Positions 37,220 through 64,000 of a stretch of 64,000 nucleotides of DNA are shown piece after piece. The stretch covers positions 1,403,620-1,467,619 of the forward strand of contig OX638319.1 of the NCBI GenBank assembly GCA_951812655.1, given 5' to 3'. The position numbers were made by a program, and so were the translations under genes. How positions within the stretch are numbered: position 1 is the first letter of the stretch; every line of letters begins with the position of its first letter. The notes under the pieces were generated by a model. That model did not search any database and was not told the origin of the DNA. It worked only from the letters and a program-made list of their open reading frames with translations. The stretch comes from an uncultured Candidatus Nitrosopumilus sp. GTDB taxonomy: Archaea; Thermoproteota; Nitrososphaeria; Nitrososphaerales; Nitrosopumilaceae.

Positions 37220-37222
37220 ATG

Positions 37223-45488: not shown

Positions 45489-45568
45489 ACATGCAACAAA
45501 ATATTTTATAAATTTTTTCCAAAAACTTTATTTTTTAATTTTACACACATTTCCAAGGAAGTGAACAG

Positions 45569-46541: not shown

Positions 46542-46558
46542 TCGAGAGGGAGTAAAGG

Positions 46559-46678: not shown

Positions 46679-46687
46679 GGTGAAAAA

Positions 46688-46870: not shown

Positions 46871-47034
46871 GATATAGAACATGCAATTCAGCCATGTGGG
46901 GAGATCCTTCCTCCCTGCATGTCCAAACTGCTATGGGACTAGGTCACAGATGTTGGTCAGACAAGGAATGTGCATCTCCAAATGATGCATGTGTAATACC
47001 GTGTAACAAGTGTTCGGGAGGCAATTCAAGATGA
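46843..47034 (+). CDS. Possible small Cys-rich ORF
   Basis: 63 codons overlapping the end of the preceding gene and sharing an ATGA with the next. The C-terminal part has CWSDKECASPNDACVIPCNK and C, a disulfide or metal knot. It lacks a signal peptide. Coupled position suggests it may be translated. Confidence 0.35.
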   Translation: MSHSDSYGIRYRTCNSAMWGDPSSLHVQTAMGLGHRCWSDKECASPNDACVIPCNKCSGGNSR

Positions 47035-48523: not shown

Positions 48524-48540
48524 ACGTACAGTATTTTTCG

Positions 48541-49422
48541 ATGAAAACAATGTCCCAAACAAAAGAAATTCTAAAAAGAATAAAAAAATTGGACATCAAA
48601 ACAAAGCAGCTAGTCGACGGCATTATTTCTGGTAACTATAATTCAATTTTCAAAGGACAGGGAATGGAGTTCTCAGAGATTAGAGACTACAGGGCAGGTG
48701 ATGACATACGAGCAATAGACTGGAAAGTAACTGCCAGATTCAATCATCCATACATCAAGGAATTCATCGAGGAAAGGGATCTGCAGGTTTATCTCGTCAT
48801 TGATGTGTCCGGCTCTGGAAATTTTGGCACAAGCATCTCAAAACAAGAAAAATCCCTTGAAATCATTGCCAGTCTAATGTTTACAGCATTACAAAATAAT
48901 GATGGTGTCGGGATCTTTTTGATCACCGACAACATGGAAAAATATATTCCTTCAAAAAAGGGTCGAAAACACATTCTACAACTGCTGAATGTAATCACCA
49001 CTTTTACGCCTAATTCTTCAAAAACCAGCCTGAAAAAGCCACTTGAACAGGTATCAAAAATAATTAAGAGAAAAAGTATCGTTTTTGTAATTTCTGACTT
49101 TATGGACACAAGTGCATATCAAATGCCGTTGAAAATACTACGAAAACGCCATGACCTAATTGCTATGAGGATTGTTGATCCAAGAGAGCGAGAAATTCCT
49201 GATGTGGGGATGATTGAATTAGAAGATAATGAGACAGGCGAACAAATTCTTGTGAACACGTCTGACAGAGAATTTAGAAACTCCTATTCTAAACTAATTG
49301 CTGAAAACGATTCACGATTTCTAACCAGTATGATGAAAAACAAGATTGATACGGTTTCATTGTCAACTGATCAAAATTCATTTACGTCGATGAAGAAATT
49401 CTTTAAAAAAAGGAATGGGTGA
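48541..49422 (+). CDS. DUF58 family protein
   Basis: 293 residues. The DUF58 hallmark is FSEIRDYRAGDDIRAIDWKV, and a VWA-like fold follows (VYLVIDVSGSGNF, SIVFVISDFMDTS). It is the usual partner of MoxR, 17 bp downstream of it. Its stop overlaps the next start by 4 bp. Confidence 0.9.
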   Translation: MKTMSQTKEILKRIKKLDIKTKQLVDGIISGNYNSIFKGQGMEFSEIRDYRAGDDIRAIDWKVTARFNHPYIKEFIEERDLQVYLVIDVSGSGNFGTSISKQEKSLEIIASLMFTALQNNDGVGIFLITDNMEKYIPSKKGRKHILQLLNVITTFTPNSSKTSLKKPLEQVSKIIKRKSIVFVISDFMDTSAYQMPLKILRKRHDLIAMRIVDPREREIPDVGMIELEDNETGEQILVNTSDREFRNSYSKLIAENDSRFLTSMMKNKIDTVSLSTDQNSFTSMKKFFKKRNG

Positions 49423-50375
49423 AAATGGCCGGATTCGATAATCAGCTTATCCTTCTTTTACTTTTACTTTTACCCGGATTATTCTATTTGTATAACAAGG
49501 TTCTTACAAAAAAGAAAAAAGCTGCAATTCAATTTAGCAATCTGTCTTACATCAAATCCGCAATGGGAAGCAAGAAGAAAACCAAACGAGATTCATTGCT
49601 ATTTTACATGTCCATTGCAATTATCACATTGATGATAGTAGGATTTGCAGATCCTCACATTCCATTAGAGCAAACAAAAGATGGAGTCAACGTTGTTCTG
49701 GTCATTGATGTTTCTGGAAGTATGCAGGCTGAGGATTATCCTCCCAATCGACTGGAATCTGCCAAAAGTTCAGCTGCGACATTGCTTGATTCCCTTCAAC
49801 CAAAAGACAATGCAGGCATCGTGACTTTTGAGACAGGGGCCACCACCGCAGCATACCTCAGTCCGTACAAGGACAAGGTGATAGAAAAACTGGAAGGCAT
49901 CTTGCCGCGAGATGGAAAAACCGCAATCGGAGATGGCCTGAGTCTGGGTATCGACATGGCGACATCTGTTCCAAACAAACAAAAAGTTGTCATTTTACTC
50001 AGTGACGGGGTCAACAATGCAGGTGTAATTACGCCTGGAGAAGCAATTGCGTTTGCCAAATCCAATGACATTCAAGTTTACACCATTGGATTGGGTTCTG
50101 AAAACAAAGTGATATTGGGATATGATTTTTTTGGGAGGGCTCAATATGCGGAGCTAGATGAGACCACACTCAAGGCAATTGCAGAAAATACTGGCGGTAA
50201 ATATTTTAAATCAATAGATTCCGAGACCCTTGAAAACATCTACAAAAACATCAGCAAAGACATCAAACGAGAACAAGAGGATACCAGCATAAAGGATTGG
50301 TTATTTGTAGCGTCACTTGGTTTGTTTCTTGCACAAATCTACATGAGGTATGGAAAGGGGAGAATAATCCCATGA
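49419..50375 (+). CDS. VWA-domain membrane protein (BatA-like)
   Basis: 318 residues with two N-terminal helices (about 5-25 and 55-75) and a VWA domain with the metal-ion site VVLVIDVSGSMQAEDYPPNR, followed by ILLSDGVNNAG. A C-terminal helix (about 292-310) closes it, as in bacterial BatA. It sits in the cell envelope with its VWA domain exposed. The stop overlaps the next start. Confidence 0.9.
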   Translation: MKMAGFDNQLILLLLLLLPGLFYLYNKVLTKKKKAAIQFSNLSYIKSAMGSKKKTKRDSLLFYMSIAIITLMIVGFADPHIPLEQTKDGVNVVLVIDVSGSMQAEDYPPNRLESAKSSAATLLDSLQPKDNAGIVTFETGATTAAYLSPYKDKVIEKLEGILPRDGKTAIGDGLSLGIDMATSVPNKQKVVILLSDGVNNAGVITPGEAIAFAKSNDIQVYTIGLGSENKVILGYDFFGRAQYAELDETTLKAIAENTGGKYFKSIDSETLENIYKNISKDIKREQEDTSIKDWLFVASLGLFLAQIYMRYGKGRIIP

Positions 50376-51910
50376 ACAAATCATTTTTACTTCTTTTTTT
50401 ATTCACAGTATCCTTTCCGTCAGTATTTGCAGAAGATCTTGTAATGTATGTTGACCAGTCTGAATACTATTTCCAGGTGGGAGAAAATGCAATTGTTCCT
50501 TTAGAGATTGAAAACAACTACGGTCAACAAATATCTGGCATGCTCCAATACACAATCAGTCAACAAATTATTCAATCCAACACGCAGATTTCAAGTTCCA
50601 ACACACAGGCATCTACATTTGCCATAGATGATGGAAATCAAACGGTCTCATTGGAGTTTGGAATCGGTAATTCCCCATCCACACTTGTAGTGAATTTAAA
50701 TTTCATATACGATGATGATGGCATCCAGACAAATGTGTCGCTTGATCCCATAACAATTCATTTTGTCTCAGATGAATCTCAAAAAAACAACATGGAAAAC
50801 AGAATGCAGAGTTCGTCTCAGAAGGGATCGCCCTCTCAGAATAATCCGTCAAACCAACAACAACAATCCATCCAGCAGAAATTAGACGAATTGATGAATC
50901 AGCAATCAGACCATCTGCAAGATCCGCAACAAAGACTTCAAAACAATCAATTGGCACAAGATAGCAGTTCACTAAAAAAAGAAATTCAGCAACAGTTGCA
51001 AGAGGAAAACGCCCTCAAACAAGAATTTGAAAAACAACTTTTAGACAATGAAGATTTTTCAAAATTCCACCAGCAATTTTTACAGCAAGGATACAATGCA
51101 ACCAGTGCAAACCTGAGCCCAAATTCTCCCTCAACAGGGGATTTTGAGGTAAATTATGAAAATGAACATGATAAATGGGCCAAAATTCATGGTAGCATGG
51201 TAAATGGCACATTAACAGATATAGAAAAACAAACCCAGGAAGAACAGGACGGATTGGTGTCAAAACTACGAGAAGATGTAACTTTTCAAGAATATGAAAA
51301 GCGATTGGCATCAGAGGGATTTGTGGAACAGAATTTAGAATTTATTTCCAATAAAAATACGATGTCCATATCACTGGAATATCAAAATGAAGAAATTCAA
51401 ACTGCAAAAATAACTGCCGAATTTGACGGAGATGAATTAACTAAAATTCATCTGGAAAAACCCGAGGATGATTATTCCTATTTGTCATATCCTTTAGGTC
51501 TCATACCATTAGTTGTCATCGGATACTTTTTGTACAAAAAACTGAAAAGAAGCAAAAAGATATCCGTAAATCCCATAGTTCCAAACAACATGCCAAAGAA
51601 ATTTGATTATGTTTTGGCATCAAATGATTTGATTCGAGAGGCAAAAGACGATTTTCAAGAAAAGCAATACAAAGATGCCTATGGAAAAGTCAGCAAAGCC
51701 ATCAGACTCTTTTTGAGTTATGAGTTAAACTTGAACCGAGAAATTACTAACGAGGGTATTTTATTGCATCTTGCCAACACAAAATACCCTGTAAATGATA
51801 TTGAGCATTGTTTCAAACTTTCAAGTTTGGTGGAGTTTGCCAAGCATCATCCCGACAAAAAAGAATTTGACGAAATAATCACAATGGCAAAATACATCAT
51901 TCATGTTTGA
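50372..51910 (+). CDS. BatD-like secreted/anchored protein with Gln-rich linker
   Basis: 512 residues from the ATG at 50372: signal peptide (KSFLLLFLFTVSFPSVFAED), Ig-like domain (30-140), a long Gln/Asn-rich region (150-230; NQQQQSIQQKLDELMNQQSD), a middle helical domain, a membrane helix (about 370-390; YPLGLIPLVVIGYFLYKKLK) and a cytoplasmic helical domain. It closes the MoxR-DUF58-BatA operon. An upstream in-frame start at 50297 lies inside the previous gene. Confidence 0.75.
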   Translation: MNKSFLLLFLFTVSFPSVFAEDLVMYVDQSEYYFQVGENAIVPLEIENNYGQQISGMLQYTISQQIIQSNTQISSSNTQASTFAIDDGNQTVSLEFGIGNSPSTLVVNLNFIYDDDGIQTNVSLDPITIHFVSDESQKNNMENRMQSSSQKGSPSQNNPSNQQQQSIQQKLDELMNQQSDHLQDPQQRLQNNQLAQDSSSLKKEIQQQLQEENALKQEFEKQLLDNEDFSKFHQQFLQQGYNATSANLSPNSPSTGDFEVNYENEHDKWAKIHGSMVNGTLTDIEKQTQEEQDGLVSKLREDVTFQEYEKRLASEGFVEQNLEFISNKNTMSISLEYQNEEIQTAKITAEFDGDELTKIHLEKPEDDYSYLSYPLGLIPLVVIGYFLYKKLKRSKKISVNPIVPNNMPKKFDYVLASNDLIREAKDDFQEKQYKDAYGKVSKAIRLFLSYELNLNREITNEGILLHLANTKYPVNDIEHCFKLSSLVEFAKHHPDKKEFDEIITMAKYIIHV

Positions 51911-52014
51911 ACGTATTTTGATAAATCGGTCTTTGTTTGTAGTGATGTTTGCAATCAGTCTGAATCTATTTTTATGATACGGATTGATTTTGTTTTTGCC
52001 AATAATCTACACCA

Positions 52015-52575
52015 CTATTCGTAAACCATCAGGTTTTTCTGCTCAAGCTCGTTGTGGATGCTGTTGACCGAACGATGTATCGCATCTTCTTGCTTTGCAC
52101 CAGCACAGACTATCTTTCCTGAAGCAAAAATCAGAATAACCGTCTTTGGATCAATCATCCGGTGAATCACTCCTGGGAACTGCTCTGGCTCATACATGCT
52201 TCTAGGAAGAACTCTGGCTGCCTGCTCCAGACTCACCTTGCCTCCCAGATTGATTGATGATACTATGTTTTGTATCGTCACTATGGGCTTGTTTTTTATT
52301 TTGATCTTGCCCTTTCTTAGCTTTTGAACAACCGTATTTACGGCCTTGACTGCCATCTCTTTGGATTTGCCGCCAGTGCACACCATATTTCCGGAACGAA
52401 AGAGCAGTGTGGTGGTCTTTGGATTCTGAAGTCAGAATATTGCTCCTGGAAATTGTTCCGGATCATATTCCACGGATGGGAATTTTTCGGTTATGTCATC
52501 GAGGTCAAGTGGTTGTTCTATCGTTGCAGAAGCCACCACGTTGACTATCTCGATTATCGGTTTGGTCTGCGCCAT
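52015..52575 (-). pseudogene. tbp: TATA-binding protein gene with in-frame TGA
   Basis: The minus-strand frame from the ATG at 52575 reads [20 protein letters not shown] then [11 protein letters not shown], then TGA (52432-52434, codon 48), then LQNPKTTTLLFRSGNMVCTG and the whole second repeat (MYEPEQFPGVIHRMIDPKTV). Repeat 1 and repeat 2 align, and Arg (CGA) is expected where TGA stands (compare GVIHRM). A single C-to-T change explains it. Without it the product would be a normal 186-residue TBP. Internal starts after the TGA would give only about 1.3 repeats. Confidence 0.85.
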
Positions 52576-52658
52576 GGTAATTTCTTAGAAATGGACCCTT
52601 TCCTACAATAAAAAAAGTTAACGATTCTTGCGTGAAAATAAAAAAAGAGGATTGTTTG

Positions 52659-52766
52659 CTAATCCTCAAGATCATACTCTGATTCTGAGTCATCGTCATA
52701 ATGATCAAAACCATCATCATGATCGAAATCATCATAATCGTATCGAACTTTTTTGTAAGAGTCCAT
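52659..52766 (-). CDS. 35-residue acidic peptide
   Basis: MDSYKKVRYDYDDFDHDDGF then DHYDDDSESEYDLED: over half Asp, Glu, Tyr and His. The regular DxxD/DD pattern may bind calcium, metal or basic DNA-binding partners. Short and repetitive, so the call is cautious. Confidence 0.4.
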   Translation of the reverse strand: MDSYKKVRYDYDDFDHDDGFDHYDDDSESEYDLED

Positions 52767-52902
52767 ATCAAATGTGGGTTGTAATTATTGGATTTAAGCA
52801 ATACGGATAATTTGTCCACAATATTTTTAAATTATTTCAGATGATGTCTTTTTTGGCGACTACAAAATGTGGTTAGAGTAAAAAATTAAAAATGTTTGAG
52901 AA

Positions 52903-53097
52903 TTGTCGGATCAGTATTTTCCAAAATCGGACCTCTTTGAAAAGTATCTAAATAAGATACGAAATTTTGAGAAACCTAAAACTCAGTTGGGAGATAATGA
53001 TATGCCAGATGAGTCATGCAAATATTGGGATGGAAAACTATGCATGTTCTCACAGATGAAAAAATCTCAAAAACAAGAGGGTAACAAATCACAGTGA
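52903..53097 (+). CDS. Small hypothetical protein
   Basis: 64 residues from a TTG with no better start upstream in frame: helix DLFEKYLNKIRNFEKPKTQL, then SCKYWDGKLCMFSQMKKSQK. Two Cys eight residues apart. Not recognised. Confidence 0.4.
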   Translation: MSDQYFPKSDLFEKYLNKIRNFEKPKTQLGDNDMPDESCKYWDGKLCMFSQMKKSQKQEGNKSQ

Positions 53098-53162
53098 ACT
53101 GTGATAAGATGTCAAGATTTAGAATGATCTAGTTTTCTGAAAAGAAATTACATGGCTCTCAT

Positions 53163-53744
53163 TCATCTAAATGACTTTACCAAATCTATGATTTCCCCTA
53201 GCAAAATATCATCTGGATTCACAAAGAAAGTTCCGAGTGCTGCAATAACAATCAAGGAAACCGCACCCACTATTCTTATCAGGATATCTCTTTTGTTGTG
53301 TTTTTTCTGTTCTTTTGACAGTCCATCAAGAATGGTCTTGGCAATTTTCTTTGTCAGATCTTTCTCATCAACCAAAGATCCATTCAGTTTGACTGAATCA
53401 ATGTTGATATCAGTTACAAACGGAAAATTTCTTGCACTGCATTCCTTGCAATTGGTATTTCTTATCGTAATTTTAAACAAAATGCCGATAAAAAATACGG
53501 AATAGACTGTAACAATGCTAAGAAAGGGAATCAAGTCTCCCTGGACAAACAGATAACCATAAACCAATACAAAGAAGCCCAAAGGAGGCAAAATGAAGGC
53601 AAAGTTCTGTTTTGCTCGAGATGTTTGAAAGCTCCTTTTTTTATGAGTCTGTAGTTTTAACGAGCCACAGTTAGAGCAGTGTCTTAATGGGCAAACCTTG
53701 GCCATGTCGTTGTATTCTGTTTGACATAGGAGACATCTCTTCAT
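53163..53744 (-). CDS. Zinc-binding membrane protein
   Basis: 193 residues from the ATG at 53744 (MKRCLLCQTEYNDMAKVCPL). It has three CxxC-type sites at the start and a fourth (NCKECSA) after two central helices (about 48-70 and 76-95), and a C-terminal helix (about 160-180). Cytoplasmic zinc ribbons on a membrane protein; the closest pattern is archaeal DUF-type zinc-ribbon membrane proteins. Function unknown. Confidence 0.55.
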   Translation of the reverse strand: MKRCLLCQTEYNDMAKVCPLRHCSNCGSLKLQTHKKRSFQTSRAKQNFAFILPPLGFFVLVYGYLFVQGDLIPFLSIVTVYSVFFIGILFKITIRNTNCKECSARNFPFVTDINIDSVKLNGSLVDEKDLTKKIAKTILDGLSKEQKKHNKRDILIRIVGAVSLIVIAALGTFFVNPDDILLGEIIDLVKSFR

Positions 53745-53920
53745 TTCTGTGGTAAAGTCTTGTTCATTTATTGATAAAAGTGTAAACTTGAACCTGTCCA
53801 AAAAACATGGAATGTTTTTGAACTGATCTGTTATTACCTGATGAAAGATCTGTATAAAATCATCTATGGGGGATAATTACAAGATTGGGACATGATCATT
53901 TTTCATCAGAATAGATTTTT

Positions 53921-54016
53921 TTACACGTGGGTATGGGAATGACCTCCTTGACTATATCCCCAATAACATTGTGCTGGGGATATAGTTAGTATAGTAGAAA
54001 TCAGACCCACGTGTAA
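53921..54016 (+). repeat. Complete copy (D) of the 96-bp inverted-repeat element
   Basis: TTACACGTGGGT at the left and ACCCACGTGTAA at the right are perfect 12-bp terminal inverted repeats. The central dyad ACTATATCCCC / GGGGATATAGT encloses the loop AATAACATTGTGCT. It lies just left of the RusA-to-casposon gene island. Core genes stand on its left side. Confidence 0.88.
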
Positions 54017-54100
54017 CTATCATGTTTCAGAATTTGGAAAAATGAGTTCTTTTAAGATGGATGTATTTAATAGATTATTTACAATATGTGTCAATAAATC

Positions 54101-54517
54101 TTGAAATCTAAGAAACTTGAAAACCTGTATAGGCCAGTACGAATTAACTTCAACCCTTTAACATCAGGCAACAAAGTAATTGAAAGAAAAATAAAATTGC
54201 GTAATTTACTCAAAGAAGCATACGGAAAAGATATTGAAAAAGTTAGGAATAAGTCAAAGAATTCTCAAAAATTATCAATTGATGCTTGTTTTTACCTACA
54301 AAAAACCAATGAGATTGGAAGAGCAAAAAAAGATTTGGACAATCTATTAAAAATTCTGTGCGATGTGTTGCCCAAGTACATGACTGCCTCAAATGAGCAT
54401 GAGGGTTTAGGCATAATAGAAGATGATGATCAGATATTTGAGATACATTGCAAAAAGGAAATTATTGAATTTGAAAAAGAGGAGGGTTTGGAATTTACAA
54501 TATCAAAAATAACTTAA
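54101..54517 (+). CDS. RusA-like Holliday-junction resolvase
   Basis: 138 residues from a TTG. The RusA signature is present: KKDLDNLLKILCDVL (metal-binding D-x-DN) and later GIIEDDDQIFEIHCKKE (DD-Q). RusA homologues process branched DNA and are typical of phages and mobile elements. It is the first gene to the right of repeat copy D and faces away from the receiver-kinase pair. The TTG start is the best available. Confidence 0.7.
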   Translation: MKSKKLENLYRPVRINFNPLTSGNKVIERKIKLRNLLKEAYGKDIEKVRNKSKNSQKLSIDACFYLQKTNEIGRAKKDLDNLLKILCDVLPKYMTASNEHEGLGIIEDDDQIFEIHCKKEIIEFEKEEGLEFTISKIT

Positions 54518-54694: not shown

Positions 54695-55351
54695 TTAATT
54701 GTCTGAGCGTAAAAATCCTTTACCATGATCTTCTTCTAATCGGGAATTTTTTATACATTCATCAGTAATTACCTGTTTAATCGATGATTCTCTTTCTTTT
54801 GAAATTTTTCCTGAGACAATTTCATGCATCCATTCTTGGATGGATTTTGTTTCATTTTCAACAGTTACTGTATTCTGATGTATTCGTAATCCTTCAACAA
54901 TATTCCTAATCTGTAGTATTCGTTCTGCCCCACTTCCCAAAACTTCACAGATTTTTCTTACAATTTCCTCTGATAGTTTTTCAGTTTTCCACTTGTCGAT
55001 AATGACTGAAATTCCTTTTGCATGTATTTCTTCAATCCTTTTTGGGGATGTAGCAAATGCTGAAACTACTATAGCTGGGATGGCCTTTCCCAGATAGAAT
55101 AATTTATCATATTCTTGATGGCCTTCTTTGGCATACTTTAGTTCTATGTCCAATATCATCAAATCAATTTGATTTTTCTCATCATTAATTATGTCAAATG
55201 CTTCTTCGGGCTCTTTTATTATGGTGATTTCAATATCGTTAATTTCGGTGTCTAAAGATTTGAAAAATTCGGTCTCTAATGCACAAATATTATATCTTAA
55301 ATCCTCTACAAATTCAACTTCATCATCAAGCCACAATACCCTAACTTTCAT
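54695..55351 (-). CDS. Receiver-domain protein with unknown output domain
   Basis: 218 residues. The receiver fold is visible: acidic pair D9/D10 (LWLDDEVEF), phospho-acceptor D68 (LMILDIEL), S97 (VVSAFAT) and K120 (VIIDKWK). Residues about 125-218 are helical with no DNA-binding motif that I recognise (IVEGLRIHQNTVTVENETKS, IQEWMHEIVSGKISKERESS). Its start overlaps the stop of the kinase gene (ATGA), so the two are cognate. No HTH means the output is probably protein-protein or enzymatic. Confidence 0.8.
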   Translation of the reverse strand: MKVRVLWLDDEVEFVEDLRYNICALETEFFKSLDTEINDIEITIIKEPEEAFDIINDEKNQIDLMILDIELKYAKEGHQEYDKLFYLGKAIPAIVVSAFATSPKRIEEIHAKGISVIIDKWKTEKLSEEIVRKICEVLGSGAERILQIRNIVEGLRIHQNTVTVENETKSIQEWMHEIVSGKISKERESSIKQVITDECIKNSRLEEDHGKGFLRSDN

Positions 55352-57516
55352 TTTTTCAATTCCTCTAACGGTATTGTAATATTAAATGTTGCACCTTCTT
55401 CTATCTCGCTATTTTCTGACAATTCTATTTTACCCCCATAATCATCTAACATTTCTCTTATTATTGGTAATCCTAACCCTGTTCCCTGTTTATTAGTCGT
55501 ATAAAATACTCTAAAGATTTTTTCTTTGTTGATCGGCTTTATACCATGGCCATTATCACTAAATTTTACTTTGAAATTTTTTGAGTCTTTCAAAATTGTT
55601 ATTTTCATTTTTCTTTTTACTCCTTCAGGTAGTTTTTGAACAGATTTCAAAGCATTTGTAAATAAATTGAGAAACATTGATGAGAAATCTGCCCTATGCA
55701 TATAGATTGAAAAGTTTTCTGGAGTAATTTTTGCAGATATAGTAGTCTCGTTTCTTTTGGTAATTCCTGTAAAATCTTCTAAAAATTTATTTAATTCTTT
55801 AGATACATTGATTTTTTCTCTTTCACGTTTTAATTCATTTTCTGACGATAAACTTTCTACAAAATGAATTATGAATCCCATGTAATATCTAATTGTGTTA
55901 ATCCTGTCATTTGCAGTTTCAAGATCTTTTTCTATTAGTTCTCTTGCTTCTGCGTCTTTCTTTAGTTTATTCATCACTTTTTCTGGAATTGCACCTAAAT
56001 GACCTATGGCTTCTTTAATTTCATGTGCTGTTGTTGCTGAAGAAATTCCTAATGATGCTAAATTTCTATAAGATCTTTGAGTAGATTCTAAAATGTCTAT
56101 TTCGTCTTCTGATGTCCTTTCATAATCATTAAACGTGTCTAGAATATCTTTAACTACACTTCTGAATCTCTTTTTATCTTCAACTGGTAATGGACTGGTA
56201 TTAATCATATCTTTCAAATGTTTAATGTCTGAAGAAATTAGATTCTCATGTTGTTTTTTTGTTTGTTTTTCTTTTATTTTTCTGTTAAGTTCTTTTCTGT
56301 AAAAACTCATAGAATCAATTGATTCTTTTACAAATGTGCGCATACTATGAAACCCTGTATTTTCTACTAATCTTTCTCTAGTTGTGGTATCTACTATCAA
56401 TGGATTCCCATCTTTGGATAACTGAACAAATCCAATTACTTGTGAATTTCCAATTTTGTAATTTGCTTGAACTCTTTCTCCTTCTAAACTGAGCCAATCA
56501 TCATTTAATTCTCCATAGGGTCTTACCCAAAAACCATCTCGATAAATTTTGACTCCGTGTAAATCTGATAATGTTTGTCTTATGTTGTTGATATTGAGTG
56601 ATTTTTTGTAATATTTGTTCCAATCTTCGTATTTTGATTGTCCCGGAAAGAAGTAAATTGTTAACTTGCATTTTCCAAACGGTGTCCATTTTTCACCATT
56701 TTCCATAACCACATCTGAAAAATCAATTTTTTCTTCAAAAATTATGTCCCTTTCCTGTCTTACGCTAACTTTTCCTGAATAACCATTTTCTGAAATTGTT
56801 GCAACAATTTTGTATGGTGCATATCTAAATAAAATACTTTGAACTTTAGGAGATTCCACGCCTTCAAATTCATCTGCAAATACATTTACTTCAAATTTAT
56901 CGTCTTTGATATCTGCTAATTCTTTTGGAAGAACTAGTGATCCTAATGCTAAACGTAATCGATTGATTTTTTGTGTAGCCCATTCTTCTCTTAGTCTTTC
57001 TAAAACAATTGTTACTCCCTCATCGTTTTTATCTTCACGATTTTTAATTTCTAAAGGATTTACTATTTTATCAAATGTTACTGAATCTTTTTCATATTCG
57101 TCCCAATCTACTGTTAATTTAATTTCATCTTGAGTTCTACGTGGCTTTGAGATTATTGTTACAGTTTTACATAATTTTTCGGTTGCAAATCTTCCTATTC
57201 CTTTATTTCCTATGACTCTTCTTTTTTTGTATTTAGTTACAGGGTGCCTTTCTTTATCATCTGTTCCAATCACCATCCATTTGTTCTCAATTGAATCTGC
57301 ATCCATCCCATGACCATTGTCTTTAATTGTGATTTTTGCATTTTTTCCATCATCTACGGTAAAATTTTCAAATATTACATCAACATTTCTTGCATCTGCA
57401 TCATATGCATTTTTAATCAATTCAAACAATGCTGCTACGTCACTTGAAACCGATTCTCGTCCGAGTAATCGAGCCATTTTCCCACTGAATTTGAATTGTA
57501 TGGATTTTTTTTGCAC
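55348..57516 (-). CDS. Kinase with two GHKL ATPase domains (Hsp90-like plus histidine kinase)
   Basis: 722 residues. The N-terminal GHKL domain has LFELIKNAYDADARNVDV (N-box), KDNGHGMD and GNKGIGRFATEKL, as in Hsp90/MORC/MutL-type ATPases. A middle domain to about 420 follows. The C-terminus is a histidine kinase: ATTAHEIKEAIGHL with phospho-acceptor H498, N-box LNLFTNALKSV, G1 DNGHGIKP and G2 GTGLGLPI. There is no membrane segment or PAS sensor, so the Hsp90-like part is presumably the sensor. This architecture has been seen near restriction and defence genes. It is the partner of the receiver protein. Confidence 0.85.
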   Translation of the reverse strand: MQKKSIQFKFSGKMARLLGRESVSSDVAALFELIKNAYDADARNVDVIFENFTVDDGKNAKITIKDNGHGMDADSIENKWMVIGTDDKERHPVTKYKKRRVIGNKGIGRFATEKLCKTVTIISKPRRTQDEIKLTVDWDEYEKDSVTFDKIVNPLEIKNREDKNDEGVTIVLERLREEWATQKINRLRLALGSLVLPKELADIKDDKFEVNVFADEFEGVESPKVQSILFRYAPYKIVATISENGYSGKVSVRQERDIIFEEKIDFSDVVMENGEKWTPFGKCKLTIYFFPGQSKYEDWNKYYKKSLNINNIRQTLSDLHGVKIYRDGFWVRPYGELNDDWLSLEGERVQANYKIGNSQVIGFVQLSKDGNPLIVDTTTRERLVENTGFHSMRTFVKESIDSMSFYRKELNRKIKEKQTKKQHENLISSDIKHLKDMINTSPLPVEDKKRFRSVVKDILDTFNDYERTSEDEIDILESTQRSYRNLASLGISSATTAHEIKEAIGHLGAIPEKVMNKLKKDAEARELIEKDLETANDRINTIRYYMGFIIHFVESLSSENELKREREKINVSKELNKFLEDFTGITKRNETTISAKITPENFSIYMHRADFSSMFLNLFTNALKSVQKLPEGVKRKMKITILKDSKNFKVKFSDNGHGIKPINKEKIFRVFYTTNKQGTGLGLPIIREMLDDYGGKIELSENSEIEEGATFNITIPLEELKK

Positions 57517-57573: not shown

Positions 57574-58599
57574 CTAATTTCCGATTAAAATTTCTGGTTT
57601 TTTGATATTTTTGCATTTTGAATTGATTTTTAATGTCTTGATAATCTCATATCCGATCAAAAATATGATTGGAACCACCACAGAATTTCCAAATTGCTTG
57701 TATGCTTGTGTGTCTGAAACCTGAATCACAAATTCTTCAGGAAATCCCATCAATCTTGCACATTCTCTGGGAGATAATTTTCTTGGATTGCTGTTTCTTC
57801 TAGGGATTAATATTTCTGATCCATCCTTACCATATCTCGCACTAAGTGTACATGATGTCTTTTTTGGATCAGCCATCCTAAATCCAAAACCATTGCCCTT
57901 TGCAGAATGTTTCTTTGCGTGGTTTTGCAACCAATTCCAAGTGTTATCTGATAAAATGTATTTTTTATTTACATTTTTTTCAAATACTTGTTTTAACTGG
58001 GGTTTTAGATCAGGTATTTCTGGAAATTCAAAATTAATTCCTTTTCTTGTTGCGACAATGTATAACCTTTCTCTTCTTTGTGGTACTATGGTTTCCGCAC
58101 TGATTATTTTCCATTTACAATCATATCCTAATTTTTTTAATTCATTCAAAATTATGTCAAATGTTTTTCCTTTGTTCATTTTTACAAGACGTGGAACATT
58201 TTCTAAAAATATCACTTTGGGATTTTTCTCTTCAATGATTTTTATAATTCTAAAAAATATTTGTCCTTGAGTGTCATCTGCAAACCCATCTTTTTTATTT
58301 AGGAATTTTCTTGTTGCAAACCCACTTTTTGAAAACGGCTGACAAGGAAATCCTGCAAGTAAAACGTCATGTTTGGGAATATCTTTAATTGGGATTTTTG
58401 TAATGTCTCCATATGGTGTGTTACCAAAGTTTTCACGGTATGTTATTTGACAATATTTATCCCATTCAGATGTAAATACACATTCTCCTCCTAAATTCTC
58501 AAATGCTAAACGCATCCCGCCAATCCCACTACAGATATCACTAAACGTAAATTTTGTCTTGCCTATCTTTGGAGAAAAATCAAACCTAACTCTACTCAT
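57574..58599 (-). CDS. DNA (cytosine-5-)-methyltransferase
   Basis: 341 residues with the C5-methyltransferase motifs in order: I FSDICSGIGGMRLAFENLGG, IV GFPCQPFS with catalytic C86, VI FLENVPRL, VIII QRRERLYIVA, a target-recognition region (about 200-260) and X YKQFGNSVVVPI. It methylates cytosine in a sequence that cannot be read from the protein. No restriction endonuclease is visible beside it. It is the gene next to the kinase on the same strand, 57 bp upstream. The cargo looks like a methylation-linked defence or stabilisation module. Confidence 0.93.
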   Translation of the reverse strand: MSRVRFDFSPKIGKTKFTFSDICSGIGGMRLAFENLGGECVFTSEWDKYCQITYRENFGNTPYGDITKIPIKDIPKHDVLLAGFPCQPFSKSGFATRKFLNKKDGFADDTQGQIFFRIIKIIEEKNPKVIFLENVPRLVKMNKGKTFDIILNELKKLGYDCKWKIISAETIVPQRRERLYIVATRKGINFEFPEIPDLKPQLKQVFEKNVNKKYILSDNTWNWLQNHAKKHSAKGNGFGFRMADPKKTSCTLSARYGKDGSEILIPRRNSNPRKLSPRECARLMGFPEEFVIQVSDTQAYKQFGNSVVVPIIFLIGYEIIKTLKINSKCKNIKKPEILIGN

Positions 58600-58826: not shown

Positions 58827-60059
58827 TCATTGAATTTTTAAAAGAATTTTTTCATAAATTCTGGAAGTTTTACCTTCAGACAAATTCTTCTTGATATGCC
58901 ATAGTGTTGATTTGTTAATTCCAAATTCTTTCCTTTCTTTTGCAGTCATACTCATAATCTTTTCTCTTAATTCTAAGTTATCATTTCTATTCAACTTCAT
59001 TTTAGGAATGGTAATTCCAAATTCTTTCTTTTTCTCTACAATGAAATTTGATAATTGTTGTAGATTATCTTGTAAGATAACTTGATATGAATAATTTTTA
59101 CCATTCTTGTAATTGCATCTAGAATTAAAATTTGAATTAATCTTCTCAATGAATAATTTGGCAACATTCTCACCCAGTCTAATATGATAGTTCTCTGTAA
59201 TGATGAAATCGGATTTTTTGATCTTCTTTTCTTCTAATAATTGAATTATCGATACATCGATGAGCCATCTGAACAATTCTTGAATGTCATAGACTAATGG
59301 TGTTCTGCTTTGGTTAATCTCATGTAGAAATCCAATTGAATAGTCCAATCCAACAGAATTAATTGACTTTCTAATCTCTGATTCTAAAATTGCATAACCA
59401 TAATTCAGCAAGGCATTTACTTCATCTGATGCATTATAGTTTCTAGAGTTTGTTTTGTTTTTTCTTCCAGTAAAGTGAAACTCTGAATTTAGTTTATTGA
59501 ATATTGCAGTCAGATTTTCATGGTAAATTTTAGCAATTCTTCCCTCGTATGTCATAAGTTGTTTGATTGATTTTGAAATATCCTGACTTTCACTATTCTT
59601 CATTATATTCAACAAAAACAAGTCTTCCTTTTCTGCTGTCTTTCTAATACGGATAATATCCACAGATTTATAGAATCTTGACAATTCTTCTAACAGATTC
59701 ATGGAATGTTCTACCTTGGTCTGTACTATTTTCAGAGCAATCTCAAATCTAGCCTCAAAATCAAGATATTTTTGATACTGTTTTACGCGTAATTTGCCTG
59801 ATTTTGGCTGCTCTGGCATGACATTTGCAAGCAACTGACCATTCCAGTTCAATAAAGTTAGATTGATGTTGTGCTTTGAGAGCCATCTCATTGCCTCAAA
59901 TGTTATGTTGCCAGTGTGGCCGTCTATGATAATTCCGTCATGATTTATCTTGTGAGGATAAAATTCCAGTCTTGTATCTTTGAGTCTGTTTGTAATGATC
60001 AGCTTTCTCTTGTCCACATTGATTGACGTTCCAAAACCTGTGATGAGTAACGAATTCAT
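58827..60059 (-). CDS. cas1: Casposase-type Cas1
   Basis: 410 residues from the ATG, or 396 from the internal GTG at 60017, which is the only possible start in the twin copy at 12938. Numbered from the GTG, catalytic residues are E158 (MTYEGRIA), H232 (GFLHEIN) and D244 (LVYDIQELFR). The C-terminal HTH (MTAKERKEFGINKSTLWHIK) is conserved. Without gaps it aligns over its whole length with the solo copy. It integrates the casposon by its Cas1 activity. The 5' end overlaps the regulator gene out of frame by 122 bp. Confidence 0.94.
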   Translation of the reverse strand: MNSLLITGFGTSINVDKRKLIITNRLKDTRLEFYPHKINHDGIIIDGHTGNITFEAMRWLSKHNINLTLLNWNGQLLANVMPEQPKSGKLRVKQYQKYLDFEARFEIALKIVQTKVEHSMNLLEELSRFYKSVDIIRIRKTAEKEDLFLLNIMKNSESQDISKSIKQLMTYEGRIAKIYHENLTAIFNKLNSEFHFTGRKNKTNSRNYNASDEVNALLNYGYAILESEIRKSINSVGLDYSIGFLHEINQSRTPLVYDIQELFRWLIDVSIIQLLEEKKIKKSDFIITENYHIRLGENVAKLFIEKINSNFNSRCNYKNGKNYSYQVILQDNLQQLSNFIVEKKKEFGITIPKMKLNRNDNLELREKIMSMTAKERKEFGINKSTLWHIKKNLSEGKTSRIYEKILLKIQ

Positions 60060-60840
60060 CTGGATGCCTCACGTCTTCTGCCCCAATAGTTTTTAGAAAT
60101 GCCTTTAGATGCTTCTTGAATTTGGCATATGTTATCTTGCCTTCTCTGTACTGATGAATCAGTCTTCTCTCCTCATCATATGCCGTACCATTGTCCATGT
60201 TTTCGCAAATGTCAAGCTCTTCTTTTGTTACCTTTTTGTATTTTTCAAGGGAATTCCTCTCTATTGATTTTATCAGTTCCGGGTAGTCAATAGAGAGTTC
60301 AAGTATTACGCTTCCGTGTTTTGTCTTGTCCAGTTTGATCTTTTTGTTTTTTACATCATCACATATTTTCTCAAACAGAAACTCGTTTACTGCAATTGCC
60401 GTATCCTTGGTGATTGGATTTGCATCAATCATGGTCTTGTCTAAGATAAGATCGTCCTCTATTCCCCACGGATAGTAGGTACTGATGACCGAAAGGTTTT
60501 GTTTTGAATAATCATTATGGTACTGTCCCCCATCTTCGAGCATCTCTGTTCTTTTGTGATAGATGAATTCTAGAATCTTGTATTTTTTTGTCCCGTTGTC
60601 GGTAATCTCATAGGCCTGATGTCCCTCATGAATTATTTTTGCAATTCTCTTTTGAGACAACAGATCCTTTAACATCAAATTCAATCCCCTGGGGGATTTT
60701 CCAGCTAATCGTTCCAGATCCTTGAATCTTTGCGGCCCATGCTTGTTTAGAATCTTCAGAATCTTGAACCGGTTGTATTCCTTTCTGGACATGATGAGCG
60801 GCTCATCAATCTTTGATAAAGTATCATTTGCTATACTCAT
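59938..60840 (-). CDS. Casposon winged-HTH regulator overlapping cas1
   Basis: 300 residues. Residues about 20-90 are a winged HTH (FKILKILNKHGPQRFKDLER, GKSPRGLNLMLKDLLSQKRI, wing IIHEGHQAYEITDNGTKKY), as in ArsR/HxlR-like regulators. A helical domain follows. The last 40 residues are read out of frame over the start of cas1. It starts 10 bp from a perfect palindrome, so it probably represses its own and the divergent polymerase-side operon. Confidence 0.72.
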   Translation of the reverse strand: MSIANDTLSKIDEPLIMSRKEYNRFKILKILNKHGPQRFKDLERLAGKSPRGLNLMLKDLLSQKRIAKIIHEGHQAYEITDNGTKKYKILEFIYHKRTEMLEDGGQYHNDYSKQNLSVISTYYPWGIEDDLILDKTMIDANPITKDTAIAVNEFLFEKICDDVKNKKIKLDKTKHGSVILELSIDYPELIKSIERNSLEKYKKVTKEELDICENMDNGTAYDEERRLIHQYREGKITYAKFKKHLKAFLKTIGAEDVRHPDEFVTHHRFWNVNQCGQEKADHYKQTQRYKTGILSSQDKS

Positions 60841-60850
60841 TTACATAATA

Positions 60851-60865
60851 CTATACCAAGTATAG
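60851..60865. promoter_or_regulatory. Palindromic operator in the casposon divergent promoter
   Basis: CTATAC-CAA-GTATAG, a perfect 6-bp inverted repeat, lies between the regulator start (60840) and the AT-rich TATTAAATATT box at 60868-60878. A half-site-like ATAGTAT occurs at 60893. Only 57 bp separate the two divergent start codons, so one bound protein could silence both operons. Confidence 0.6.
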
Positions 60866-60897
60866 CGTATTAAATATTGCGCAGGCTTCTTTATAGT

Positions 60898-61098
60898 ATG
60901 CAAGCAACAAAAATTGTAAAAAATAAGGAAAAAAATCATGAGAATGCAAGAAGAATCAGTTGCCTTCGATGCGACCATGATTGGATTTATTCTGTAGCTA
61001 CAAAGCCCAGATACAGAATCAGGTGTCCTATGTGCCACTCGTCTCAAAACGAGTTTAACCGCAGGACCTTTGGCAAGTGGAGTGCGCCGTATTCATGA
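60898..61098 (+). CDS. Zinc-ribbon protein of the casposon
   Basis: 66 residues from the ATG at 60898: basic N-terminus, then ISCLRCDHDWIYSVATKPRY and IRCPMCHSSQNEF. The two CxxC pairs form a zinc ribbon with an R-x-R-CPxC pattern like DNA-binding zinc ribbons. The stop overlaps the next ATG (ATGA). It is the first gene of the polymerase-side operon. Role unknown; possibly origin or end binding. Confidence 0.65.
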   Translation: MQATKIVKNKEKNHENARRISCLRCDHDWIYSVATKPRYRIRCPMCHSSQNEFNRRTFGKWSAPYS

Positions 61099-61586
61099 CG
61101 CCGTTGTTTCAGAGATCATGGAGAAAACTGTCTCCGCGGCAAAAAATGCTGCGTGAGAGGTCACTTGCAGTGATTAGCGAACTGCGCAACACAAAAAGCA
61201 AAACATTACCGCAAGCAGCAAACGACAATAACGTCACTGTCAAGAATGTCATCAAGCACACAAACGGTTTCAAGAAAGTAAATGGCAAACCCGTCGTAAA
61301 GCGATGGGACAGAATCAAAAGGGTGATGAGAGTCAACTCTGGCGGCAAAGAGAAAAGTTTAGAGGTTCAAGATTCCAGAACTGCGTCAGTTGTGGGACGA
61401 TACCACAATGCAGTGAAGCAGTTCTTGAATACCGGAGATAAATCCAAACTATCCAAGTTCAGAAATAAGAAAGTTAAGGATAGTAAGGGGAAACTACATC
61501 AACTCGAAACCAATCCCGATGAGATAATCAGGATAAACCAAAGGATTGAGGAACCCGAGTTTTACGAGGTGTACAATACAAAATGA
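61095..61586 (+). CDS. Putative HTH DNA-binding protein of the casposon
   Basis: 163 residues from the coupled ATG at 61095. The N-terminal part reads LSPRQKMLRERSLAVISELR, then TLPQAANDNNVTVKNVIKHT, an HTH-like pattern (LPQAAxxxxVTVxxV) resembling homing-nuclease and transposon DNA-binding segments. The rest is strongly basic (FRNKKVKDSKGKLHQLETNP). It shares a 4-bp overlap with the HNH gene. Not a named family to me. Confidence 0.6.
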   Translation: MTPLFQRSWRKLSPRQKMLRERSLAVISELRNTKSKTLPQAANDNNVTVKNVIKHTNGFKKVNGKPVVKRWDRIKRVMRVNSGGKEKSLEVQDSRTASVVGRYHNAVKQFLNTGDKSKLSKFRNKKVKDSKGKLHQLETNPDEIIRINQRIEEPEFYEVYNTK

Positions 61587-62077
61587 CTGTCAATCAAACC
61601 GCCCAGGTAAACAAGATTGTCAGTTTGCAAACATTGTTAGGATTCTGCATCGGCAGACTCAGAGACGATACCCTTGACACCGTTGATGACATAGAATCAT
61701 GGATAAACGAGATTGTCTGCAAATCCAAGAACAGGTCAATGCAAGAAAAGAAGAACAGATGTGAGATTTGCAATTCCAAGGAAGAACCGTACAACCTGGA
61801 ATTGCACCACATCGCAGGAAGAAAGCATGATTACCGCACCATTACAGTGGACAGGAAATGCCATCATGAATTAAGCGAATCTCAGAAAACTTGGGACAGT
61901 AGGTGGTTGCAGGAAAACCAGTCCGAGAATGTCCGTCTGGGGTTCTTGCTCATGGGGATTCATGACGTGCTGATGCTCAAGGGCCAAAACACCAGAAATA
62001 ACGCATATGAGGAACTGGCAAGGAAACTGCGCCAAAGAATCTACCAGTCGCTGAACGTGGAGGAAGAATACGCATGA
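61583..62077 (+). CDS. HNH endonuclease of the casposon
   Basis: 164 residues. The HNH core is at about 59-97: RCEICNSKEEPYNLELHHIA and CHHELSESQKTWD, with zinc Cys C60/C63 and C93 region and the catalytic His pair H75/H76. It is a nicking or cleavage enzyme probably used in replication, excision or target cleavage. Overlaps both neighbours by 4 bp. Confidence 0.88.
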   Translation: MTVNQTAQVNKIVSLQTLLGFCIGRLRDDTLDTVDDIESWINEIVCKSKNRSMQEKKNRCEICNSKEEPYNLELHHIAGRKHDYRTITVDRKCHHELSESQKTWDSRWLQENQSENVRLGFLLMGIHDVLMLKGQNTRNNAYEELARKLRQRIYQSLNVEEEYA

Positions 62078-64000
62078 AACTGGGCAAAATGGGCGTGATC
62101 AATGTACCTCAGGCAGAGTCAATCAGCCTCAGATGCTATACTGGAAACTACAGGCCTGTCTCACGCTATTCCCACAACGAAAATGCCAATAATGGAATGG
62201 TGTTAACTTTCAGCACTGAGACCACTTCTGACCAGCAACAGACCCTGACCTTTGGCTCCTGTGCAGTCTGGATTAACGGCACATTGTATAAGATTTGTCT
62301 TTTCCATGATGAGAATCGGGACTCCGAGAAAGTTGATATGATAAAAAAAGTTGGAGAAACACTGCAAAAAGAAAAGGACTGCATTGTAACCGTATCATCC
62401 AAGGATGAGTTTGTGACAAGGGTCTTCTATCCGTATGTCTATGAGGCAAGGGCAAAGTATGTCGGCTTTGACTTGCCATACGAGTTGTCTAGACTTGCAT
62501 CATCATGGGGAACTGCAAGAAAAATCCAAGATGCGTTTTCAATGAAACTAGTTGATGGCATTCCACGTCTTCCCGCAATCAGGATTAAGAGCATAAACGG
62601 AAATGCGGCATTCATCCAGTTTGCAACTCCGCTAAGGACAAAAAGCGAGAAGAAGAAATTCCCAACCCGCAAGGTGTACAGAGGGTATTTCCTGGATTTG
62701 AAAACAATAGGACATGCAATGAGCAACAAGTCCTTTGATGCAATGGATGGACTTGCAAGAACGTTTGATGTAGATGCAAACCTGAAAAGCAAGAAAGGGA
62801 TTACGGAAGCTGCAATCAGAAGCAATGTGGACAAAACACTGACAATGTATAATATCTACTGCAGAATTATTTCCGTGTTACAGAATACGTTTTTGGTAAA
62901 ACCAAACAATGCAAACAATCTGTACTCTCCAGCTTCAATTGGGAAACACTATCTAGAGAAGCTAAACATCAAGCCGCTCCTGGAGAAAAATCCAGATTTT
63001 TCAAAAGAAATTCTAGGAAACATGATGACTGCATTTTATGCAGGACGGGTCGAAACCAGAATCAGAAAAACACCCGTTCCAGTTACTTATCTGGATTGCA
63101 CCAGTACCTATCCTACAATGTTCTTGCTGATGGAAATGTATCCGTTTTTGACTGCAGAGAAAATTGAACATTCTGTCACTACACAACAGACGCAGAAATT
63201 CCTTGATGGGGTCACCCTGCAGGACGTTTCACAAAAGGAGACATGGAGGCAGCTGACCACAATCTGCAAGGTAGTTCCAGACGGCAACATGATTGTGCCT
63301 GTACGCTCCGGATACGGCTCCAAGAAAGCCCAAAACATAGGCGTAAACCCTCTCAAAAGCACCGATGGAACGAGCCTGTGGTATACCGTATCTGACCTGA
63401 TAGCCTCAAAGTTGCTTACGGGTCACACATCAATAATTGAAAAGGCAATTACATTCTCTCCTGCAGGAATACAGCAAAACATTCCTGATGAGGACGTGGA
63501 AATTTTCAAGGGAGTGACAGTCAATCCGAGAAAAGAGAATTTCATCAAGCAACTAATCGAGAAGCGGTTGGAGATGAAGCGACCCTCAGAAAATTCTGAA
63601 ATTGATAGCACAATACAGAACACGATAAAAATAATCGCAAACACCGCAGCATACGGCATACACATCCAGGTAAACTCTGAAAAATCTGAGAAGCAAAACG
63701 AACCAGTAAAGGTCTATGGAATTGATGAATCGTTTTCCATAGATCAAAACACAGTATCAAGAAAGGAGATTCCTGCAAGGCACTTCAATCCCATATTGGG
63801 AGTCTTCTTGCCTGCAGCTGCAAGGTTAGTTTTGGCAGCCGCCGAAAGTATCGTTACATCACACAGAGACGGATACGTTGCCTACATGGATACAGACAGC
63901 ATTATGGTTTCACCAAAACATGCAAGTGGGATTCAGAAGTTTTTCCAGAAACTCAATCCATATGAAAACAAGGACGTGCAGATTATGAAAGTTGAAAAAT
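62074..64000 (+). CDS. Casposon-type family-B DNA polymerase, 3' end off window
   Basis: The open frame from the ATG at 62074 (coupled to the HNH stop) runs to the window edge with 642 codons. Residues about 40-75 are the likely Exo I region (VLTFSTETTSDQQQTLTFGS, where DTET would be expected), followed by an Exo II-like GFDLPYELSRLA near 130. Motif A is YLDCTSTYPT (D341), motif B KIIANTAAYG and motif C YMDTDSIMV. It copies casposon DNA. About 115 residues at its N-terminus are missing in the sister copy at 41366. Whether it is protein-primed rests on family knowledge, not on anything seen here. Confidence 0.92.
   Translation, partial: MKLGKMGVINVPQAESISLRCYTGNYRPVSRYSHNENANNGMVLTFSTETTSDQQQTLTFGSCAVWINGTLYKICLFHDENRDSEKVDMIKKVGETLQKEKDCIVTVSSKDEFVTRVFYPYVYEARAKYVGFDLPYELSRLASSWGTARKIQDAFSMKLVDGIPRLPAIRIKSINGNAAFIQFATPLRTKSEKKKFPTRKVYRGYFLDLKTIGHAMSNKSFDAMDGLARTFDVDANLKSKKGITEAAIRSNVDKTLTMYNIYCRIISVLQNTFLVKPNNANNLYSPASIGKHYLEKLNIKPLLEKNPDFSKEILGNMMTAFYAGRVETRIRKTPVPVTYLDCTSTYPTMFLLMEMYPFLTAEKIEHSVTTQQTQKFLDGVTLQDVSQKETWRQLTTICKVVPDGNMIVPVRSGYGSKKAQNIGVNPLKSTDGTSLWYTVSDLIASKLLTGHTSIIEKAITFSPAGIQQNIPDEDVEIFKGVTVNPRKENFIKQLIEKRLEMKRPSENSEIDSTIQNTIKIIANTAAYGIHIQVNSEKSEKQNEPVKVYGIDESFSIDQNTVSRKEIPARHFNPILGVFLPAAARLVLAAAESIVTSHRDGYVAYMDTDSIMVSPKHASGIQKFFQKLNPYENKDVQIMKVEK

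Follow-up and report, generated by a model that had tools for sequence, protein, structure and literature searches.

The DNA analysed here, a window of 64,000 nucleotides from an uncultured Candidatus Nitrosopumilus sp. (contig OX638319.1, positions 1,403,620 to 1,467,619), carries the left part of an element, E3, which on its sequence features is very probably a family-2 casposon and one of at least six elements arrayed in tandem at a single target. Casposons are mobile DNA elements whose insertion is carried out by an enzyme related to Cas1 of CRISPR systems.

Boundaries and gene content of E3

E3 occupies the middle of the casposon array and extends from window position 53976 to window-equivalent position 74443 (20,468 bp; genome 1457595-1478062), flanked on both sides by identical 14-bp target-site duplications (TSDs), AATAACATTGTGCT, in direct orientation. 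The first-pass annotation had read this region as a casposon, a reading borne out by the terminal inverted repeats (TIRs), the direct TSDs, the casposase, the PolB and the occupied versus unoccupied host locus. The TIRs, which it had proposed as a check, are 42 bp long and present at both ends (left, 53976-54017; right, ending at 74443), so that its element limits of 58827-64000 were wrong; because the TIR positions enclose the methyltransferase and kinase genes, these lie inside E3. A comparison with the phage collection gave no DNA match. The genes and the main intergenic region are as follows.

54101..54517, plus strand: RusA-type resolvase (PF05866, E=8.6e-6)
54695..55351, minus strand: response-regulator-like protein, cargo (PF00072, E=1.6e-5, under the gathering score)
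55348..57516, minus strand: protein with two GHKL/HATPase domains, cargo (domain matches)
57574..58599, minus strand: C5-cytosine DNA methyltransferase, cargo (PF00145, E=4e-89)
58827..60059, minus strand: casposase Cas1, 410 aa, with a C-terminal HTH module (PF01867, E=5e-61)
59938..60840, minus strand: winged-HTH-like regulator (weak HxlR match), overlapping cas1 by 122 bp in a different frame
60841..60876: divergent intergenic region, 36 bp, between the wHTH-like and zinc-ribbon ORFs
60877..61098, plus strand: small zinc ribbon (CxxC...CxxC; orthologues in G009 and G058)
61077..61586, plus strand: conserved 169-aa casposon protein (present in 9 of 9 related casposons compared)
61583..62077, plus strand: HNH-nuclease relative (weak PHROG HNH matches; partly degenerate zinc/catalytic site)
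62074..64000 in the window, ending at window-equivalent 64908, plus strand: PolB, 944 aa (motifs, relatives, C-terminal module common to the casposase)

The core genes originally named, namely Cas1, the wHTH-like and zinc-ribbon proteins, the 169-aa protein, the HNH-like protein and a PolB-like protein running beyond the window, are all present, and their divergent layout is real and also seen in relatives. A shared control region with an operator was not confirmed: the divergent region measures 36 bp, or 57 bp should translation begin at the ATG at 60898, and a repeat scan detected no inverted repeat of at least 10 bp in it. Residues ~20-246 of the wHTH-like protein are conserved in relatives G015, G030 and G036. 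The 169-aa protein is possibly a second HTH protein, judging from a very weak HTH_23 match (E=0.12) to its G030 orthologue. Among the cargo, the N-terminal domain of the GHKL/HATPase protein also matches restriction-enzyme ATPase models.

The suggestion that the catalytic residues are intact holds in part. Cas1 residues E172, H246, D258 and E261 are invariant in the casposase alignment, and polymerase motifs A/B/C are present in PolB; the three PolB exonuclease motifs, by contrast, are degenerate (FDTE->FSTE, GFNLPFD->GFDLPYE and YxxxD->SxxxK), and in the HNH protein one zinc Cys is missing, as is the residue that would align to the relatives' Asn. The proofreading site of PolB looks dead in the sub-clade of E3. 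The complete PolB ORF (L004 6694-9528) yields a protein with no PolB match in Pfam, PHROGs or NCBIfam, whereas relatives alignable to it do match PolB profiles; its identity rests on these relatives, on the motifs and on a poor, low-confidence fold model (mean pLDDT 49). The relatives include proteins of Methanolobus, Methanococcoides and Methanosarcina, most with a full-length Cas1 close by.

Family assignment

Published criteria for family-2 casposons comprise a C-terminal HTH on the casposase, the same module on PolB, an HNH gene, HTH proteins and a tRNA-type target (PMC4046053, PMC6614799, PMC6563490), and our assignment was made with these criteria and the M. mazei casposase 6opm. The casposase profile aligned end to end with 6opm (residues 1-409, C-terminal HTH included, E=6e-91), the next match being 4n06 (residues 4-340, E=5e-35). 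A similar HTH module was recovered at the C-terminus of PolB, which aligned with that of Cas1 at E=5.8e-12 (hhalign, probability 97.5), compared with E>=0.06 for four control windows. The gene complement includes an HNH-like gene with altered residues, the wHTH and the weakly HTH-like 169-aa protein, and the target trait is seen in a TCAAATC-like motif at the array's own site and a tRNA-Glu 3' end at the leader of a relative. In a casposase tree that leaves out the named references AciBoo-C1 and NitNCS1-C1, the E3 Cas1 groups at 100/99 with casposases from Micrarchaeota, Nanoarchaeota, Thermoplasmata and other thaumarchaea, in a clade sister to methanogen casposases (Methanolobus etc.).

The gene set had initially been described as known from family-1 casposons of Nitrosopumilus, and E3 does share with these (NitAR1-C1) its host genus and the pairing of Cas1 with PolB; one of seven relatives of its PolB also matches DNA_pol_B_2. 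That E3 is a family-1 casposon is nevertheless very improbable. Its casposase falls outside the family-1 casposases, which form a separate group in the tree (100/100, branch 2.1), and family-1 elements are distinguished by a casposase without the HTH, a protein-primed PolB and an EF-2 target. Family-1-type elements in relatives encode a Cas1 of 338-356 aa with no C-terminal HTH, several of them beside EF-2, and a PolB of ~594-628 aa against 944 aa here; the PolBs of G051 and G013, the two tested, match DNA_pol_B_2 (PF03175) at 1e-23 and 9e-22, whereas that of E3 has no such match. Family-1 elements target protein-coding genes at their 3' ends, most often ef-2, whereas the present site is intergenic. 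EF-2 was ruled out as the target, as it lies >250 kb away.

In addition to the module-bearing casposase and PolB and the HNH-like and HTH-like genes, the family-2 elements AciBoo-C1, MetMaz-C1 and NitNCS1-C1 resemble the present casposons in a ~14-bp TSD, a leader motif TCAAATC/T 9-15 bp upstream and a tRNA-type target (PMC4046053, PMC6614799, PMC6563490). In contrast to those known elements, the casposons described here reside in Nitrosopumilus, form long arrays and carry large cargo, degeneration affects the PolB exonuclease as well as some of the HNH site, and their sites are mostly tRNA-3'-end-like sequences outside recognised tRNA genes.

The array and its target site

E3 belongs to a series of at least six elements with TIR boundaries (E0-E5), arranged head to tail in a single 109-kb block, which is built from five TIR-TSD-TIR junctions and a leader-bearing left end, with copies of one 14-letter target sequence separating the elements. 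Three of the elements have cas1. The TIR model gave 12 matches in this genome, every one within the array island, and the part of the array to the left of E3 is laid out as follows.

11581..11597, plus strand: target-recognition leader GTTCAAATTTCATCAGG; the host PPIase gene lies ~150 bp away
11598..11611: leader-proximal TSD copy AGCACAATGTTATT, reversed with respect to the five copies inside the array
11612..11653, plus strand: left TIR of the array, in E0 (TIR matches)
11612..33184: E0, 21.6 kb, with TIRs at both ends
12938..14167, minus strand: third cas1 copy, in E0; an open frame that lacks a normal start codon and begins SNPLPITG
33143..33240: junction E0 to E1, TIR - AATAACATTGTGCT (33185-33198) - TIR
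33199..41335: E1, 8.1 kb, TIR-bounded
33292-34218, minus strand: TFB gene in E1
35270-35722, minus strand: Lrp/AsnC regulator in E1
41305..41391: junction E1 to E2, with a degenerate left TIR arm, TSD 41336-41349 and right TIR 41350-41391
41350..53961: E2, 12.6 kb, with a PolB remnant, Hsp20, a MoxR-DUF58-vWA operon and a TBP gene
41366..43615, plus strand: PolB remnant of E2, 5'-truncated and frameshifted, beginning inside the TIR
53920..54017: junction E2 to E3, with TIRs 53920-53961 (E2 right) and 53976-54017 (E3 left) around TSD AATAACATTGTGCT at 53962-53975

E1, E2 and E5 retain TIRs but lack a cas1 or polB of their own or have it in damaged form; neither gene was found in E1. At the right end of the array no recognisable right TIR was detected, and E5 ends somewhere in 1520970-1524356. 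A cas2 gene and CRISPR array nearby, which had been named as evidence against a casposon, were not encountered: the genome has no cas2, and a tandem-repeat scan covering L004 showed no CRISPR-like array.

The insertion site is intergenic, beside a gene whose translated sequence identifies a parvulin-type PPIase, and the leader motif TCAAATT at 11583-11589 occupies -15 to -9 from the TSD, equivalent to the leader position at which the A. boonei casposase requires TCAAATC (PMC6614799). ARAGORN and Rfam detected no tRNA or other RNA in this leader; the leader of one relative is a tRNA-Glu 3' end, and the same 20-bp end recurs at a second leader. The leader and its flank have no second copy in the genome, and a 26-bp leader-plus-TSD pattern recovered only this site from 95 genus genomes. 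That pattern was replaced by a TIR profile, which matched in 20 of the 95, with up to 57 copies per genome. Across the genus, which holds many arrays with differing TSDs, exactly 14 bp separate the TIRs in 33 of 39 distinct junctions, and TCAAAT stands exactly at -15 in 28 of 45 non-junction ends (shuffled mean, 0.024).

With the right host flank located by synteny, the two flanks lie 109 kb apart here versus 0.5-5 kb in twelve relatives. At the level of the whole island the locus is element-free in these relatives, whose two host genes have no such block between them. The leader was not seen in the unoccupied stretches read, so the state before insertion could not be reconstructed to the base. 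In G016, G038 and G049 an E3-type TIR stands at the same site next to the PPIase gene. A G053 casposon considered as a same-site insertion was rejected, as it lies at a neighbouring site (a 22.5-kb insertion against 190 bp in the present genome) and has no recognisable leader.

Origin of the array

The boldest reading, somewhat less likely than not, is that Nitrosopumilus genomes host polarised, growing, CRISPR-like casposon arrays, in which 1-25-kb cargo elements are moved in trans by shared casposases, tRNA-3'-end mimics serve as insertion sites, and the target copy is often reversed through a TSD-carrying intermediate. In the mechanism favoured for E3 itself, the casposase would recognise TCAAATY in the leader, 9-15 bp upstream of where insertion occurs, and join the TIR 3' ends by 14-bp-staggered strand transfer, after which gap repair would leave the TSD; the presumed role of PolB is to copy the element at about the time it transposes. 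Since leader and TSD are thereby regenerated, the site would be reusable and the array would grow by the logic of CRISPR adaptation, with the newest element expected to adjoin the leader. E1, E2 and E5 were probably inserted by casposase in trans, or lost their genes afterwards.

The five internal TSD copies run opposite to the leader-side one, an inversion that plain repeated insertion does not predict. For the inverted TSDs specifically, an origin from excised circles that carry the TSD and bring it in reversed, as opposed to a later inversion, is on balance unlikely. Inverted TSDs occur in three of five leader-proximal elements examined (G000, G053, G089:C45), and a reverse-complement TSD after movement was reported in M. 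mazei (PMC10359463); yet one inversion event with E0 and E5 as its partners, two elements that have inverted homologous blocks in common, explains all five flipped copies of this array, a palindromic junction could flip unaided, and the sample is small.

That the whole array arose from one casposon through segmental duplication or recombination, as opposed to repeated insertion, is very unlikely. The Cas1 copies of the array are 84-87% identical and the PolB copies 82% identical as DNA, and the inverted blocks of E0 and E5 would also fit duplication. However, cargo differs between elements, and homology extends only over cas1, polB and some blocks; in the tree, Cas1 sequences from other genomes fall between those of this array, though modestly supported; the junctions have the form TIR-14 bp-TIR; and the genus has many arrays that differ in their TSDs. 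It is scarcely credible that MITE-like or regulatory repeats of independent origin, with ordinary chromosome between them, account for the 98-bp palindromes, for despite their palindromic form and the chromosomal-looking genes of E1 and E2, they are restricted to islands, their 14-bp centres are identical within this array and different between arrays, single-ended copies stand at a leader with a fixed motif offset, and relatives have the two host genes without the block between them.

Returning to growth by repeated insertion, casposon tandem pairs are already known: NitNF5-C1/C2 (ef-2) and Methanosarcina elements are separated by the TSD at one target, and those reports describe pairs (PMC6563490, PMC9939771), against at least six elements at one target here, genomes with as many as 57 TIR matches, and elements that have TIRs but no cas1/polB. 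We found no description of arrays as long, nor of inverted TSDs in them. The likeness to CRISPR arrays, in which spacers are stacked much as the elements are here, is an analogy of function only: in both, leader and repeats are regenerated by Cas1-type integration, but the units inserted here are 8-22-kb mobile elements, in a genome without Cas2.

The favoured origin of CRISPR adaptation lies in casposons. In these arrays a Cas1-type integrase appears to have stacked many elements behind a leader, with a fixed recognition motif and a 14-bp repeat that is regenerated, which is near the intermediate that the CRISPR-origin hypothesis needs, and the insertion order, polarity and target use of casposon arrays become readable from genomes. 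Casposons are also a sizeable source of accessory DNA in abundant ammonia-oxidising archaea, amounting here to 6.5% of the genome, TFB and TBP genes included.

Element boundaries and the tandem array

The studied genome is a single contig (C1) of 1,672,661 bp, with the window at C1:1403620-1467619, so the sequence to the right of the window could be read. Self-comparison of 145 kb recovered ~98-bp palindromes sharing identical centres. A profile derived from these palindromes splits each one into a pair of 42-bp inverted repeats, GGGGATATAGTTA...GACCCACGTGGAA, pointing away from a 14-bp centre; taken as casposon ends, the palindromes read as junctions between two terminal inverted repeats (TIRs) separated by a target-site duplication (TSD). 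Six elements are bounded by five such junctions plus an end that bears the leader (window 11581-11653):

E0, 21.6 kb: cas1 frame lacking its start codon
E1, 8.1 kb: TFB at window 33292-34218
E2, 12.6 kb: PolB remnant and TBP (L003 16635-17194)
E3, 20,468 bp: casposon genes of the first-pass annotation
E4, 19.9 kb: cas1 and TBP (L005 6520-7080)
E5: cas1-polB fusion relic at 1519620-1520946

In the E5 relic (L045 9621-10947), the first ~43 cas1 codons are fused, on a single strand, to the polB C-terminal part; no right TIR of E5 was found. E3 occupies genome positions 1457595-1478062 (window 53976 to 74443) and is flanked on both sides by the direct repeat AATAACATTGTGCT, and the inverted repeats and TSD that the first-pass annotation asked for are present. 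With these boundaries, E3 includes the RusA gene as well as those for the methyltransferase, the kinase-like protein, and the response-regulator-like protein, and the narrower extent of 58827-64000, beside a neighbouring methylation/kinase cargo, no longer holds. In window 54695-58599, genes for a C5 methyltransferase, an ATPase/kinase with two GHKL domains, and a response-regulator-like protein are adjacent; this set may constitute a defence cassette, since the N-terminal ATPase domain of the double-GHKL protein matches type II restriction-enzyme models.

Tandem casposons with TSDs between them have been described as pairs (PMC6563490, PMC9939771), whereas this array comprises at least six elements; we found no description of arrays of this length in the open-access papers searched.

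Gene content and family assignment of E3

The core genes were recovered where they had first been placed:

Window 58827-60059, minus strand: Cas1 (PF01867, 5e-61)
Window 59938-60840, minus strand, with 59938-60059 shared with cas1: winged-HTH-like ORF upstream of cas1
Divergent from these: small zinc ribbon, 169-aa protein, HNH-like protein, and a long ORF encoding PolB

The winged-HTH ORF extends 122 bp into cas1 in a different frame; its counterpart in G036:C30 ends at the cas1 start. The claim that catalytic residues are intact needs qualifying. PolB retains all three polymerase motifs (A, B, and C), whereas its exonuclease motifs are degenerate (FSTE, GFDLPYE, and SxxxK versus FDTE, GFNLPFD, and YxxxD in more distant relatives). 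The HNH site is also altered: Asp replaces the third zinc Cys of most relatives and the Asn is also absent. The protein encoded downstream of PolB has NSTGMIE-like tandem repeats of 21 bp at its start (L004 9532-9646); their number varies among copies.

A CRISPR locus, which a cas2 gene and CRISPR array beyond the window would have indicated, finds no counterpart here: cas2 is absent from the whole contig, all three Cas1 matches in the genome are of the casposase type, and a tandem-repeat scan of L004, the stretch carrying the complete E3 polB, detected no CRISPR-like array.

The best match to a casposase profile of eleven relatives was 6opm, the casposase of M. mazei (6e-91), aligned from position 1 to 409 with the C-terminal module included; 4n06 came second (4-340). 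Cas1 and PolB have homologous C-terminal ends (hhalign 5.8e-12, against 0.06 or worse for four control windows), a trait E3 has in common with family-2 casposons (PMC4046053), the family to which the HTH is confined (PMC6614799). Relatives of PolB come from Methanolobus, Methanococcoides, Methanosarcina, Micrarchaeota, and other lineages, and in most cases a full-length Cas1 is encoded close by. Family-1-type casposons also exist in this genus, with a 338-351-aa Cas1 near an EF-2 gene (identified by sequence) in G051, G007, and G035, accompanied in two of the three by a ~594-aa PolB; the family-1-type PolBs of G051 and G013 match DNA_pol_B_2. In our tree, E3-type casposases are clearly apart from the family-1 type. 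The full 6opm match, the Cas1/PolB homology, and this separation therefore overturn the initial attribution of the gene set to family 1. NitNCS1-C1 was the first thaumarchaeal family-2 casposon (PMC6563490); we found no description of family 2 in Nitrosopumilus in the open-access papers searched. Stand-alone casposase C-terminal HTH stretches lacking the rest of Cas1 occur at G053:C1:377196-378942 and 1733134-1733331. A PolB 79% identical to that of E3 lies on L106 (JAJDDX010000210.1), binned as a Phycisphaerae bacterium but probably a misbinned Nitrosopumilus contig.

Target site, host locus, and spread in the genus

The leader, at the left end of the array, carries TCAAATT at -15 to -9 before the TSD; the A. 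boonei casposase requires TCAAATC at the same offset, 9-15 bp upstream (PMC6614799). Across the genomes read, we collected 45 distinct non-junction ends and 39 distinct junctions. TCAAAT lies at exactly -15 in 28 of the 45 ends and at -14 in three (shuffled mean at -15, for a slightly looser motif, 0.024), and exactly 14 bp separate the TIRs in 33 of the 39 junctions. In G087:C87, the 3' end of a tRNA-Glu gene (ARAGORN) serves as leader, and G080:C21 shares this 20-bp end; most other sites have a sequence resembling such an end, and searches for tRNAs and Rfam families returned nothing at the present site.

The adjacent host gene (about 1414770-1415050) is, by sequence, a parvulin-type PPIase. 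It lies 109 kb from the region beginning at 1524356, versus 0.5-5 kb in twelve relatives; by this comparison, which is not base-exact, the locus is occupied here and unoccupied there. The leader is absent from the unoccupied loci in the stretches read, which may reflect intergenic divergence or arrival of the leader itself with something. The site beside the PPIase gene also carries this TIR in G016, G038, and G049, and the G053 casposon lies a few kb beyond, as a 22.5-kb insertion where the present genome has 190 bp.

Of 95 genomes from the genus, 20 contain matches to the TIR profile, four of these having one weak match each near the cut-off. The present genome has 12, G089 27, and G087 57, the last being a MAG with about 8% contamination in which strains may be mixed. 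A 1.3-kb element at G087:C25:8721-10039 (L211 722-2040) has casposon TIRs, a leader, and near-identical TSDs, and is too small for cas1 plus polB.

Array growth and orientation

TIRs, TSDs, leader motif, tandem order, and family traits are all present. We infer that the casposase would insert elements at the leader plus TSD, regenerating a target site that could be used repeatedly, and that elements without their own genes would be inserted in trans. Given the CRISPR parallel and the M. mazei mini-casposon inserted into the left TSD (PMC10359463), the array would be expected to be polar, with the newest element beside the leader. All five internal TSDs are reverse complements of the leader-side copy (C1:1415217-1497947, window-equivalent 11598-94328). 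E0 and E5 have inverted homologous blocks in common, and a single inversion between them could produce all five flipped TSDs. Inverted TSDs also flank leader-proximal elements in G053 and G089:C45, and direct ones those in G087:C51 and G087:C25, giving three inverted among five in a small sample that includes this array; a reverse-complement TSD was likewise observed after movement in M. mazei (PMC10359463).

Genes for the basal transcription factors TFB and TBP are located within E1, E2, and E4; casposon arrays may supply the TFB/TBP expansion in these archaea.
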